From: Sphingorhabdus sp. EL138 | GTDB lineage: Bacteria; Pseudomonadota; Alphaproteobacteria; Sphingomonadales; Sphingomonadaceae | NCBI RefSeq assembly: GCF_900258045.1 | Contig: NZ_OGVD01000004.1 | Location: 1,116,001 to 1,180,000 of the forward strand | DNA: 64,000 nt | Reading direction: 5' to 3' | Part shown: piece after piece, positions 32,710-36,968 of the stretch | Position numbering within the stretch: position 1 is the first letter of the stretch | Layout of the letters: each line of letters starts with the position of its first letter | The notes under the pieces: model-generated | The model's database searches: none | What the model saw: only the letters and a program-made list of their open reading frames with translations | Told to the model about the DNA's origin: nothing | Translations under genes and position numbers: made by a program

Positions 32710-33729
32710 TCAGCCTTTGCGCCACTTGGTCCATAAATGGCGGGCCAGCATCAACGGCGGCATCCTGAGCCAATGAGAGCGGATATAGAAGGCCTGCCGT
32801 GTGAACTTTCGGGTTTCTCTTCCCCAGCCATCACGGGCCAATAGCCTTCTGAAGTAAAGATAGTCCGTGAACTTGGTGTGGCCCGCGCGATAATTATAGA
32901 CCGGCGTATCATAGAGGCGGAAAGCTAACCGCAATGCCCGTGCGAGATGCGGCTCCAGCTGATGCAGTCTGGCCCGGACGCCCAACACGGTCCAAAACTC
33001 CGCGTCTGCTTCCGAAAACTGCCGTACCAAACGGTCGATATCCCAAAGGTTGCGCAACCCTCCGGCCAGATCACCATCAGCAAAAAGATGAGCGACAGAG
33101 TGGAGCAACATATCAGCAGGCGACATGACGTAGAGACCTGAATCCAGCTTGACCGCTGCATCCAGCATGGCCTGAGGATTTGGCGTCGGTTCAGCGGTCA
33201 GTGGTAAGGTCGTGTGATGCACATCGATCATCCGGTCGCGATCGCGGTGGATCAACGGCGGTAGCTCATGCATATGTTCGCGATAATATTGATCGTCATA
33301 AGGGTCCGGCTTTACCCATTCCCAACCCGCATCCAGCAACGCCTCTTCAACAGCGAGCAGCGAGTCCTGGGCGACCATGATATCGAGATCGCCTATGCTT
33401 CGACCAATCCCCGCATCAAGATCCGCCGCGACATAGGCGGTGCCTTTCATCAGCACGACCTTGCAATTTAGCGGCGCAAGAGCCCGGCGCGCGCTATCTG
33501 CCTCCCAAAGCGCTTGTTGCCTTGCAAGGTCAGTAGCTTGAATCGCATCTTTCAGAATGGGCCCAACTTGCTCCGGGACAGCAATTTCGGCCAACCGATG
33601 GGCAAGACTGCCGATGAGCGACTCTGCTCGGGCAATGCTGATCAGGTTGGTCCATCCAGCGCCATCAAGTGAGAGAACCGTCTCTGGCTCGCGCAAGGCA
33701 TCGACCAAAGGCTGAGCATCGCGCATCAT
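32710..33729 (-). CDS. nucleotidyltransferase-like protein of an HprK/PqqD cassette
   Basis: About 339 aa. The central segment matches the uncharacterised nucleotidyltransferase family PF14907: VLMKGTAYVAAD, then GRSIGDLDIMVAQD, in which DLDI supplies the metal-binding aspartates; IDVHHTT follows. Such proteins accompany lasso-peptide and other peptide-modification genes. ATG at 33729 overlaps the kinase stop (ATGA); a GTG at 33744 is also open. Last gene of the cassette. Confidence 0.82.
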   Translation of the reverse strand: MMRDAQPLVDALREPETVLSLDGAGWTNLISIARAESLIGSLAHRLAEIAVPEQVGPILKDAIQATDLARQQALWEADSARRALAPLNCKVVLMKGTAYVAADLDAGIGRSIGDLDIMVAQDSLLAVEEALLDAGWEWVKPDPYDDQYYREHMHELPPLIHRDRDRMIDVHHTTLPLTAEPTPNPQAMLDAAVKLDSGLYVMSPADMLLHSVAHLFADGDLAGGLRNLWDIDRLVRQFSEADAEFWTVLGVRARLHQLEPHLARALRLAFRLYDTPVYNYRAGHTKFTDYLYFRRLLARDGWGRETRKFTRQAFYIRSHWLRMPPLMLARHLWTKWRKG

Positions 33730-34586
33730 GGGAGCTGGCTCCACAAGTCGTTGATCAGGTCTTCGGCCTGATCCCCTGACTGATAATCCATCGCTTTGGT
33801 GGGCACGTTATCAACAAATCGGGTCAGGGCCCGAAAGCCCGTCTCTCCAAGAGCCACATAGTTTGTCGACGCCTGGGTCAGCCGGACAAATATCTCGCTC
33901 TTGCCCATGTCACGCAGAGCAGGATCATGACCAAAGCGCGGAAACAGAAGCAACGCAGGCTTGGCGGCGTCCACCATTCTGTTCACCGCATCCAGCGGCG
34001 GGACGATATGGCGGATGTCTCCTTTCGGCGTCCCCTTCATCAAGGGGCCAAAACGATTTTCAGGTACAATTGCCTTCATTGCCGCAATTGCCTCATTTTT
34101 GAGGCTGATCAGCCGAGGGAAGCTGTGCACCATGCCGGTGTCCGGATTGAGCAAGGCAAATTCATCGCCCATGAATCGCCAGCCTTTTTCCGCGAGCATG
34201 GCGGATAGCGTCGACTTTCCCGAACCTGACAAGCCGGTCATTAGCAATGCCTTACCATCCTTTTCGACACTGCTGGCGTGCAGCAAAAGATGCCGCCGCC
34301 AACCCAGTGCCATTTGGAGATTCATACCCATTTCCGCAGCCAATAGGCTTTGATCAAGCGGGAGCGGCGCAGCATCAGGAAGCCAAAAATCACCGGAGAT
34401 GTGAACAGAAGGCCGAAAATAGCGCCGCCAAGGTTTTTCAGGCTCCAACCGGACGGTGAAGTCAGCGTAGCCATCCTGTGACGTTGGATAGTCCTTGTAG
34501 AGGGTTGCCAGTTGATCGAGAGGCCGCCGCCAGGTCGACGCCAGCCGATATCGTGTCGGCCCAACGGTCAGATAGAGCTGATGCAT
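33726..34586 (-). CDS. HprK-related kinase (HprK-related kinase A type)
   Basis: About 286 aa, related to HPr serine kinase/phosphorylase. Walker A is clear (MTGLSGSGKSTLSAML), followed by the HprK-like GWRFMGDEFALLNPDTG. It lacks a full HprK N-terminal domain, and no HPr gene is nearby. Relatives in lasso-peptide clusters phosphorylate a serine of the precursor peptide, so a peptide or protein substrate encoded here is likely. I start it at ATG 34586; GTG 34595 or 34631 are alternatives. It lies directly after the PqqD-like gene. Confidence 0.83.
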   Translation of the reverse strand: MHQLYLTVGPTRYRLASTWRRPLDQLATLYKDYPTSQDGYADFTVRLEPEKPWRRYFRPSVHISGDFWLPDAAPLPLDQSLLAAEMGMNLQMALGWRRHLLLHASSVEKDGKALLMTGLSGSGKSTLSAMLAEKGWRFMGDEFALLNPDTGMVHSFPRLISLKNEAIAAMKAIVPENRFGPLMKGTPKGDIRHIVPPLDAVNRMVDAAKPALLLFPRFGHDPALRDMGKSEIFVRLTQASTNYVALGETGFRALTRFVDNVPTKAMDYQSGDQAEDLINDLWSQLP

Positions 34587-34600
34587 GCGCGCCACCGGGC

Positions 34601-34879
34601 CTAAACCTGTTCCACAAGGCCAAGCGAACACAGCTCGACAAGCCTCGCCAGAACAATATCGGCGGCGTCGCCGCTGTCCTCCAGATCATAGCTATCAGAC
34701 AGTCTGCCCGCGATATCCTCGGCCGTCAGAGCATCCTTGTTCATAACCGCCAGTATTGCGGGTACCGGGTCTACAACCATATGAGTGATACCCGATGATT
34801 TCTGGAAAATCAGCGTCATACTGTCCAGCGGATGCTGGATCAGCCCTTCGGATGCGGCGGCGCGATAAAGCTGGCTCAT
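34601..34879 (-). CDS. PqqD-like protein (peptide-chaperone fold) of the HprK cassette
   Basis: 92 aa. The winged-helix PqqD/RRE fold is suggested by FQKSSGITHMVVDPVPAILA, ALTAEDIAGRL and the end LVELCSLGLVEQV. PqqD-type proteins bind a precursor peptide and hand it to the modifying enzyme. The order PqqD-like, HprK-like, nucleotidyltransferase matches a cassette annotated in databases as the HPr-rel-A system, whose product has not been established as far as I know. Confidence 0.8.
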   Translation of the reverse strand: MSQLYRAAASEGLIQHPLDSMTLIFQKSSGITHMVVDPVPAILAVMNKDALTAEDIAGRLSDSYDLEDSGDAADIVLARLVELCSLGLVEQV

Positions 34880-34980
34880 TGGCGGTTACACTATCCCTGA
34901 TCACGGCAAATCATTCGAAAAAGCCATTAGCATGAATATGTTAATAAGCATTGGCTTTGAAGCCAAAATTCAGTGCAAAG

Positions 34981-35412
34981 CTATCGCGGCATTTGCAGAG
35001 ATGCGTAGCAGGTAAAACCGCTTTGCCCGGACTGGAGCCGCCGGATATAATTCACATAGGCTTTGGATTGATCATAGGATGTGCCTGGTAGAGACCGGCC
35101 ATTCATCGCGCGCTTCACTTCTTCACCGGTAAAATTCCGGCCTGCGGGCGGAAATGCACCCGGCGTGTCTGGTGATACAATTTTTCCGTCAGGGCCGATA
35201 TACCCGCCCGCGGCATGATTTCCCGGGACCGGAATTTCACAATTCAGCACCGAACCAGCGGTCTGCGCTAAAGCCGGCTTGATACTGACAACCGCAGATG
35301 CCGTCACGGCCCCCATCATCAGCGCACGGCGGCGAGTGACGATCGCAGCATTCTGAGAAGCGTCCTGGAAATCTGCAGTTTTCCCATTCTGGGTTGGATT
35401 ATCGGTCATCAC
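34981..35412 (-). CDS. Tat-signal exported hypothetical protein heading the HprK/PqqD cassette
   Basis: 143 aa (or 142 from the second Met). A twin-arginine-like signal (TRRRALMMGAV) leads into a hydrophobic stretch and a cleavage-like KPALAQ near residue 50. The mature domain of about 93 residues has two cysteines (VLNCEIP and FTCYAS), a glycine/proline-rich front half and a GKIVSPDTPGAFPPAG segment. No family recognised. It is the first gene of the row, 101 bases before the PqqD-like gene, and is my candidate for the cassette's substrate. Confidence 0.7.
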   Translation of the reverse strand: MMTDNPTQNGKTADFQDASQNAAIVTRRRALMMGAVTASAVVSIKPALAQTAGSVLNCEIPVPGNHAAGGYIGPDGKIVSPDTPGAFPPAGRNFTGEEVKRAMNGRSLPGTSYDQSKAYVNYIRRLQSGQSGFTCYASLQMPR

Positions 35413-35644
35413 GTAAATTTTCCTCTGAACTTAGCTCTTAAAGAGAAAAACGATTAAATGCGAGTGAACAGTCGCAACAGCAAATCGTCGTCCATAAACG
35501 GGACAAATTGGCTAAAACCCTTAATGCTTGAGATTTGATTTCAATCTCCGGATGCGCATCATCGACTACAATTTTTACATAGCCGTTGCTGTTTCTGTGC
35601 AAACCCGCCTAAACAAGCGACCGAATTCCAGCGCAACGGCAAAT

Positions 35645-36913
35645 ATGAACACAATTTCTCCATTTCGGCTGATTTTTGCGATTCTCCTGATCATCGGGGG
35701 ATCAGTTTTGGCTGCTCAAACTTCCGCGGCACTGATGAAAATTATAATTATGTCGGCATTTGGAATCGTCGGCCTTGCCATTGTTGCCTTGGAAGATCGT
35801 GCACCGCCGCCGCCAGATTTCAACGCGCTGGAACGGCAAAAAAAACGGCTACTATACCAAGGTAGGGCGGAAGCTTACCAGGATGTGGTTGATCCCATTA
35901 CCGACCCGATTTTACTTATCCGCAATGCCAAAGTAGCGATGGCCAATCCGGCTGCGAAAAATTTTCTAGGCAATCATATTATCGGAGAGGACGTGCGGGT
36001 CGCGATTCGTCATCCGGCAGCTGCCGATCGCTTGGCTAATCCCAATGCCGAACATACAGGAGAACCCATTTTATTAGTCGGGGTCGGCAGTGCTGATCAG
36101 CGTTGGGAATTACGAATTCATGCACTGGATGACGGACTAAAGCTGGTTCAGTTGTCAGACCAAAGCAGCCGCTACGCCGCAGAACGTATGCGTACTGATT
36201 TCGTGGCCAATGCCAGTCACGAACTACGTACGCCATTGGCTGCCATAAAAGGTTTTATCGAGACTCTGGAGAACCCCGAAGCAGGCAAAGATGAAGACAC
36301 ACGTGCACGTTTTCTGACAATCATGTATCGTGAAGCCGACCGCATGCAGCGATTGGTCGAAGATCTGATGTCGCTGTCCCGTATAGAAGCCGAAAAATAT
36401 CAATTGCCCGCAGAGCCGGTTGATCTGGCCAAGCTTGTGGCAGAAGTGAGAACGGTTTTTCTGAACGGTCGTAGCAAGAATGAAGATAATTTTGTTATCT
36501 CTCTGCCCGACAACTTGCCGATGATCCAGGGCGACCATGCGCAGATATCCCAGCTGCTTCATAATCTGGTCAGCAATGCCATTAAATATGGACGACGGGG
36601 TACGCCGGTATCAGTTGCAGTCAAACCCAACCGAAATGGCTCGATGCTTCGCCTGTCCGTGACGGATCAAGGCGATGGAATAGCTGCAGAGCATATTCCG
36701 CGACTAACGGAACGTTTTTACCGCGTAGACAAAGGGCGGAGCAAATCGATCGGTGGAACCGGGCTGGGGCTAGCCATTGTCAAGCATATCACCGAACGGC
36801 ACGGCGGCCGGATGGAAGTAACCAGTGAACAAGGCGTTGGCACGACTGTCGCAATATTCCTGCCGGTTATCAAACCACAGAGCGGAAGCATCACCATACC
36901 CGATGTAATATAA
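35645..36913 (+). CDS. phoR: phosphate-regulon sensor histidine kinase PhoR
   Basis: 422 aa from ATG 35645. Two N-terminal membrane helices with almost no periplasmic loop, a PAS-like domain (about 90-190), the H-box NASHELRTPLAAIKGF and the ATPase boxes (NLVSNAIKYG, DQGDGIAAEHI, GGTGLGLAIVKHI). The short loop is normal for PhoR, which senses through PstSCAB-PhoU rather than directly. A longer TTG frame from 35528 is less likely. Its response regulator lies at the far end of the block. Confidence 0.95.
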   Translation: MNTISPFRLIFAILLIIGGSVLAAQTSAALMKIIIMSAFGIVGLAIVALEDRAPPPPDFNALERQKKRLLYQGRAEAYQDVVDPITDPILLIRNAKVAMANPAAKNFLGNHIIGEDVRVAIRHPAAADRLANPNAEHTGEPILLVGVGSADQRWELRIHALDDGLKLVQLSDQSSRYAAERMRTDFVANASHELRTPLAAIKGFIETLENPEAGKDEDTRARFLTIMYREADRMQRLVEDLMSLSRIEAEKYQLPAEPVDLAKLVAEVRTVFLNGRSKNEDNFVISLPDNLPMIQGDHAQISQLLHNLVSNAIKYGRRGTPVSVAVKPNRNGSMLRLSVTDQGDGIAAEHIPRLTERFYRVDKGRSKSIGGTGLGLAIVKHITERHGGRMEVTSEQGVGTTVAIFLPVIKPQSGSITIPDVI

Positions 36914-36931
36914 GTGTCATAAATATGTAAT
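36914..36931 (+). promoter_or_regulatory. Pho-box-like site upstream of pstS
   Basis: GTGTCAT, four bases, ATGTAAT: matches of 6/7 and 5/7 to the PhoB half-site CTGTCAT at the canonical 7-4-7 spacing. It starts right after the phoR stop and about 100 bases before pstS. Confidence 0.6.
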
Positions 36932-36968
36932 CATTAGGACACTGCGGACTTTTAAATGCTGTGCAACC

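Follow-up and report, generated by a model that had tools for sequence, protein, structure and literature searches.

A 64,000-nucleotide stretch of the Sphingorhabdus sp. EL138 genome (contig NZ_OGVD01000004.1, positions 1,116,001 to 1,180,000; hereafter the window) carries a cassette of four minus-strand genes in a row, which encode a twin-arginine translocation (Tat)-signal protein, a PqqD-like protein, an HprK-related kinase and a nucleotidyltransferase (Table 1). The first-pass annotation had described this layout, with close spacing of the last three genes, and had assigned their products to PqqD-like, HprK-related and nucleotidyltransferase families under the label HPr-rel-A. All of this held up: the last three genes are separated by 5 bp and then by an ATGA overlap, and each family model scored above its curated cut-off. 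HPr-rel-A is a name already present in annotation databases; what looks new here is an exported protein as the system's apparent substrate.

Table 1 Features of the cassette in window coordinates
Feature	Position	Strand	Details
Four-gene cassette	32710-35412	minus	Signal protein, PqqD-like, kinase and nucleotidyltransferase in a row
Gene 1, Tat-signal protein, proposed substrate	34981..35412	minus	143 amino acids from GTG 35412, 142 from ATG 35409
Twin-arginine-like signal, TRRR-ALMMGAV...PALA	35266..35337	minus	Possible leader for the PqqD-like protein
TCYAS, conserved C-terminal [ST]-C-x-x-S core	34999..35013	minus	Ser138 at 35001-34999, Cys135 at 35010-35008 (GTG numbering)
Gene 2, PqqD-like (TIGR04353)	34601..34879	minus	49.7 bits, cut-off 35
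Gene 3, HprK-related kinase A (TIGR04352)	33726..34595	minus	245.8 bits, cut-off 200
Gene 4, PF14907 nucleotidyltransferase	32710..33729	minus	160.6 bits, cut-off 31.2

Read from the sequence, the likely start of the Tat-signal protein is ATG 35409, with GTG 35412 possible, and that of the PqqD-like protein is ATG 34879, after a 101-bp gap from the Tat-protein stop. We took GTG 34595, 5 bp past the PqqD-like stop, as the likely kinase start; GTG 34631, from which the frame is open, would overlap the PqqD-like gene. The transferase probably starts at ATG 33729, within the overlap with the kinase stop. Kinase and PqqD-like protein, both above the TIGR04352 and TIGR04353 cut-offs, place the cassette in HPr-rel-A; the fourth gene belongs to PF14907, with a conserved acidic centre and a nucleotidyltransferase fold in addition to its score. 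The window’s PqqD-like protein is the sole TIGR04353 match in its own genome, and the kinase’s nearest named relatives are sphingomonads. Gene 1 matched no Pfam or NCBIfam family at E values up to 1.

The possibility that these genes rarely occur together, raised in the first-pass annotation, does not survive a survey of neighbourhoods: they co-travel both within the order Sphingomonadales and outside it. Among 80 close loci in named genomes (the best 80 of 297 relatives; loci and genomes carry our survey numbers, L and G), a Tat-protein homologue was found at 78, a PqqD-like gene at 79 and the transferase at 80, and the misses (L052 for both the Tat and PqqD-like genes, L099 for the Tat gene) fall in stretches that begin at or near the cassette. 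To escape the bias of close relatives, we then turned to two broader samples and took each genome that exceeded the TIGR04352 cut-off: 79 of 147 in the order and 61 of 398 in the phylum, 48 of the latter lying outside the order, for a total of 127 loci read (79 order and 48 outside, the window’s own genome counted). At 77 of the 79 order loci the PqqD-like gene lies beside the kinase (misses: L183, at a contig end, and L239), and the transferase lies within 4 kb of the kinase at 77 of 79 (misses: L023 and L190, both at contig ends). PqqD-like proteins bind peptides, and lasso B1 proteins are PqqD-like.

Exported proteins accompany the kinase as well. By inspection, a signal protein with the C-terminal motif described below lies near the kinase at 72 of 79 order loci, the others being L183 (contig end), L239, L174, L176, L181, L185 and L189. 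Five of the six genomes behind the uncut loci hold the exported protein elsewhere: in G035, G080, G097 and G119 (L174, L176, L181 and L185) the Tat gene is kept at a distance from the kinase or on a separate contig, and three of these four have it next to a phoR-like gene; in G053 (L239) the Tat and PqqD-like genes sit together on a different contig from the kinase and transferase; L189 (G036) gave none. Linkage is thus lost without loss of the Tat gene, which argues for a functional tie. A profile, A1, built from the window’s Tat protein and 38 homologues and run over the 147 order genomes, returned 44 matches, all in kinase-bearing genomes (the kinase itself exceeds its 200-bit cut-off in 43 and scores 187.8 bits in G006); the candidate substrates of ~36 other kinase-bearing order genomes are too divergent for it. 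Within the window’s taxonomic family, all 23 kinase-positive genomes have a Tat-protein homologue and none of the 41 kinase-negative ones does (Fisher p 7e-18, shared descent ignored). This co-presence persists in genomes where the genes are not linked, and the exported protein appears to be the substrate. Its signal, TRRRALMMGAV...PALAQ, is twin-arginine-like as judged by eye, and in 83 aligned rows R28 is kept in 82 (one gap), R27 in 78 and AxA in 82.

The exported proteins share a C-terminal motif, FTCYASLQ in the window and [ST]-C-x-x-S-[hydrophobic] in general form, whose Cys135 and Ser138 are unchanged in 83 of 83 aligned homologues (one row lacks the signal region). In a motif-blind test, the most signal-like frame beside each PqqD match was picked regardless of motif, giving 107 loci (72 order, 35 outside) after 15 without a PqqD match and 5 without a pick were dropped; each pick was scored for [ST]-C-[WLIYFVM]-x-S-[IFLVYM] within its last 65 residues. 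The full motif was present in 100 of 107 picks (71/72 order, 29/35 outside), against 0.18 of 107 expected from shuffled tails of the same picks, and among 240 kinase and transferase frames just 3 have so much as a looser C..S core within their final 60 residues. Two of the seven misses are wrong frames (L189 and L232, the latter locus carrying SCLDSF in a short frame); the others are L192, L209, L211, L225 and L212, whose frame in the pick was also wrong and whose motif-less status comes from direct reading. The motif serine lies 1-49 residues from the protein end across the 100 picks and 2-10 residues from it in 81. All eight unlinked substrates that we read carry the motif, and four of them (G029 at 9-96, G052 at 3-99, G070 at 9-75 and G053 at 1-123 of 138) matched the profile before the motif columns and so form an independent check; in G029, G052 and G070 the unlinked protein is a second candidate substrate beside a linked one. 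Four loci (L240, L161, L168 and L186) each hold two different motif-bearing substrates. At three others, second, orphan motif-bearing proteins (L249 4698-5342, L250 4707-5363 and L251 4938-5564) lie away from the kinase and adjoin genes that by eye resemble a sigma factor.

Both enzymes keep their conserved residues. Kinase H118, K139, D156 and E157 (numbered from GTG 34631) are invariant in 126 of 126 aligned rows, which disposes of the first-pass concern that most homologues might lack active-site residues, and transferase K100, G101, R115, D119 and D121 (numbered from GTG 33744) are present in 109 of 109. The transferase model (predicted local distance difference test, pLDDT, 93.8) aligned best with the solved folds of MenT1, TglT/MenT3 and ANT(2'')-Ia. 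Sequence searches of the PDB returned for the kinase weak P-loop matches only, HPrK among them at E 0.45, and for the transferase nothing besides one match at E 0.9. We set aside a conventional HprK regulator of sugar uptake, because the HPr kinase/phosphorylase model Hpr_kinase_C (PF07475) scored 16.8 bits against a cut-off of 33.3 and a PqqD-like gene is the usual companion. The cassette kinase likely works as an HprK-type kinase, though it is not filed as an HPr kinase/phosphorylase.

The cassette is also associated with the XrtA exopolysaccharide system, for which the amidotransferase TIGR03108 (E up to 1e-230) served as marker in the same genome samples. Across the 398 phylum genomes, 56 had both, 5 the kinase only, 7 TIGR03108 only and 330 neither. 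Among the 43 genomes outside the order with both, the two share a contig in 31 and lie within 5 kb in 22 and within 50 kb in 28; in the window’s own genome, XrtA is ~77 kb and TIGR03108 ~78 kb from the cassette. Other lineages, which the first-pass annotation could not see, have a glycosyltransferase, a tetratricopeptide repeat (TPR)-sulfotransferase or XrtA exopolysaccharide genes with the cassette. Family models confirmed both XrtA glycosyltransferases, TIGR03087 and TIGR03088, at L221, and TIGR03087 also at L210 and L227; their homologues occur at 19 and 22 of the 48 loci outside the order and at 2 and 0 of the 79 inside. A GT4 glycosyltransferase gene stands between the Tat and PqqD genes at 10 of 80 close loci (9 Sphingobium, 1 Sphingomonadaceae), and at L221 a TPR-sulfotransferase (PF13469; 5274-6995) stands between kinase and transferase. 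A homologue search with this protein matched 15 of the 48 loci outside the order, a count that any TPR protein could enter.

Taken together, these comparisons of sequences lead us to propose that the cassette both produces one exported protein and modifies it. This protein, the one with the Tat signal, would be made and folded in the cytoplasm; the PqqD-like protein would bind it, probably at its signal or leader end, and bring it to the HprK-like kinase, which would phosphorylate the motif’s invariant serine (Ser138 in the window). To that phosphate the PF14907 enzyme would add a hexose, as PsmN reportedly does on pseudomycoidin, or, going by its fold, a nucleotide. Once tagged, the protein would leave by the Tat pathway, its cysteines would pair outside, and it would serve the XrtA/PEP-CTERM exopolysaccharide layer. 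We put the probability of this overall reading at about 0.5. Its parts differ in strength: the Tat protein is very probably the substrate; that the motif serine is the phosphosite is close to an even bet, as is a role in the exopolysaccharide layer; and a second step acting on the phosphate falls slightly short of even odds. The first-pass annotation had proposed modification of a protein or peptide by phosphorylation and/or nucleotidylation. Comparison supports a protein as the target, with the Tat protein and one serine within it as the probable target and site. What the comparisons show is gene linkage, co-presence, invariant active sites, the motif, substrate type following the kinase clade and the XrtA association; from these we infer the substrate, the modified residue, the chemistry and order of steps, the export route and the function. 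A bolder version strikes us as unlikely: the twin-arginine signal would double as a leader like those of ribosomally synthesized and post-translationally modified peptides (RiPPs), whole folded proteins would receive a phosphate and then a sugar or nucleotide at a single C-terminal serine and would leave the cell already tagged, and the serine-linked phosphoglycan would anchor or prime XrtA-type exopolysaccharide outside.

Several observations weigh against the proposed modification of one exported protein. Outside the order, the PqqD-like gene was recognized at just 35 of 48 loci and the transferase at 36; at 6 of the 13 PqqD-like misses (L201 and L203-L207) a small open frame is in place, unrecognized by the profile. 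Inside it, 6 of 79 loci lack a nearby exported protein and one is cut. For the signal, TIGR01409 did not match the window copy and matched 2 of 39 homologues, one of them above cut-off (18.1 versus 16.7 bits). The kinase has Asp-Glu where lasso kinases reportedly have Asp-Asp. Order genomes with both kinase and TIGR03108 number 68, with the kinase only 11, with TIGR03108 only 36 and with neither 32, so that many genomes of the order have XrtA but no cassette and the link is much weaker there; all genome co-occurrence counts, moreover, ignore shared descent. Outside the order, our scans of the 48 loci found a motif-bearing exported protein at 30, one lacking the C-terminal motif at 12 and no exported protein at 6 (L194, L200, L208, L226, L227 and L236, with L200 and L208 at contig ends). 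By eye, 7 of the 12 motif-less proteins show C-x-x-S soon past the signal, which may be chance. Finally, the number of cysteines in the mature protein is even in 97 of 100 picks, so the motif cysteine may be kept for a disulphide.

This parity would suit an arrangement with the exported protein as partner or substrate, its C-x-x-S being a structural or recognition motif (a disulphide cap, or a PqqD or sorting signal) and the kinase acting on another residue. The Ser or Thr that precedes the motif Cys in 81 of 81 proteins offers an alternative site, and the Tat-protein model (pLDDT 62.7) has no assigned fold, no solved structure having matched it at E 0.001 or better. However, all 83 aligned rows keep the serine, where a disulphide would need only Cys, and lasso kinases act on a C-terminal Ser, as the accessible parts of PMC8498205 describe; we regard such a structural or recognition motif as unlikely. 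The phosphoserine might instead be an intermediate, eliminated to dehydroalanine so that the neighbouring Cys closes a thioether ring. The idea draws on an invariant Cys that lies three residues from a likewise invariant Ser, beside a kinase gene, but no lyase or cyclase is among the four genes and even Cys numbers suggest disulphides, making it very improbable indeed.

Returning to phosphorylation of the exported protein, the kinase tree bears on the twelve motif-less loci (L191, L192, L201, L203-L207, L209, L211, L212 and L225), several of whose exported proteins show an SPG-aromatic stretch by eye. Eleven of these twelve loci have kinases that group in a single clade (support 100/91), with L192 apart; substrate type thus tracks the kinase, as expected of an enzyme-substrate pair. 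The tree has 79 rows (25 of the 79 order loci, 46 of the 48 outside and 8 lasso-like); its lasso-like rows are very long-branched and their placement was not used, and the motif-less row L206 is also long. Kinase and transferase might alternatively act on a sugar- or lipid-linked exopolysaccharide intermediate, with the Tat protein a polymer accessory and not a substrate. XrtA co-occurrence and linkage, the glycosyltransferase or TPR-sulfotransferase inserted in some cassettes and the alignment of the transferase fold with small-molecule ANT enzymes would all fit. Against this stand the tracking of substrate type with kinase clade and the retention of a PqqD-like gene of peptide-binding type (77/79 order loci, 35/48 recognized outside), and we consider such an intermediate more doubtful still than a structural motif.

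Between signal and motif, the exported proteins fall into seven groups of middle regions (45, 29, 18, 4, 2, 1 and 1 members; BLASTP E 0.001, single linkage). This variety, the four loci with two different substrates each and the similar toolkit of lasso clusters could point to a secreted product, a bioactive peptide or bacteriocin whose variable middle is the active part. That is quite improbable, as the cassette is kept in 79 of 147 order genomes, often with the same phoR-like neighbour, so that inheritance looks vertical rather than mobile. In the window, this neighbour is a phoR-like histidine kinase gene (35528-36913) divergent from the Tat gene; within the stretches read, homologues occur at 74 of 80 close loci, 42 of 79 order loci (25 of the 79 read only to ~1.5 kb) and 0 of 48 outside the order. 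Tandem Pho-box-like repeats (36904-36942, with one-mismatch matches at 36904 and 36915) lie ahead of a pstS-like gene. A Pho-box scan of the window gave 124 matches against 141 expected, with none above chance at the cassette. Scans of the cassette itself found one terminator-like site (1.2 by chance) and two promoter-like sites, on the other strand (1.0 by chance), and the RNA fold of the Tat-PqqD gap (z 0.54) was not above chance.

With a substrate family and one invariant residue proposed, HPr-rel-A becomes a one-protein mass-spectrometry question, and because related gene sets recur in many bacteria carrying the XrtA exopolysaccharide system, tagging is testable on a single protein. If true, our proposal would carry the lasso tailoring toolkit (HprK-like kinase, nucleotidyltransferase, PqqD-like protein and in some cases sulfotransferase) beyond small peptides, to proteins that are exported, and tie it to a widespread exopolysaccharide system.

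The window cassette is a member of HPr-rel-A as defined by NCBIfam TIGR04352 and TIGR04353. Those family models name no substrate; we propose one, a variable exported protein whose C-terminal serine motif is conserved, and we count the association with XrtA. A full-text search for the HPr-rel-A names found no paper in the literature collection covered, and the terms kinase, TIGR04353, HPr and nucleotidyltransferase are absent from PMC12710340 and PMC7470986, as are HPr, PqqD and nucleotidyltransferase from PMC1569441. The XrtA/PEP-CTERM system (TIGR03108, TIGR03109, TIGR03087 and TIGR03088) co-occurs with the cassette and is often adjacent to it outside the order; unlike PEP-CTERM proteins, the cassette’s exported protein has no NCBIfam match and ends in a different C-terminal motif. 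The SynChlorMet cassette also has an HprK-like kinase (ScmC, TIGR04249), a model that scored 29.5 bits here, far under its cut-off of 125. A precedent comes from the lasso enzymes PsmK/PsmN (pseudomycoidin) and PadeK (paeninodin). As far as the accessible parts of PMC9266682 and PMC8498205 describe it, the C-terminal Ser of lasso precursors is phosphorylated by HprK-like kinases, and in pseudomycoidin a nucleotidyltransferase puts hexoses on that phosphate. Some Firmicute lasso clusters likewise hold sulfotransferase and nucleotidyltransferase genes (PMC8498205, accessible parts). The HprK-like kinase and nucleotidyltransferase are thus common to both by description; unlike the lasso pairs, the candidate substrate here is a 142-amino-acid protein with an export signal. 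The first-pass view that this is not a standard RiPP cluster is borne out as regards the cyclase, since no lasso cyclase lies in the window and none in the whole genome exceeds the NF033535 cut-off of 525 bits, the four listed matches all falling outside the window. Eight other order loci (L257-L264) pair an HprK-like kinase with PF14907. Five of them also have an asparagine-synthase-like gene and a weak PqqD-like match and are probably lasso clusters; L257, L258 and L261 have no synthase match. Against the cassette profile, the eight kinases score 38-59 bits (38-56 in the five synthase-bearing loci), and scores this low suggest that the cassette represents its own lineage of a comparable toolkit.

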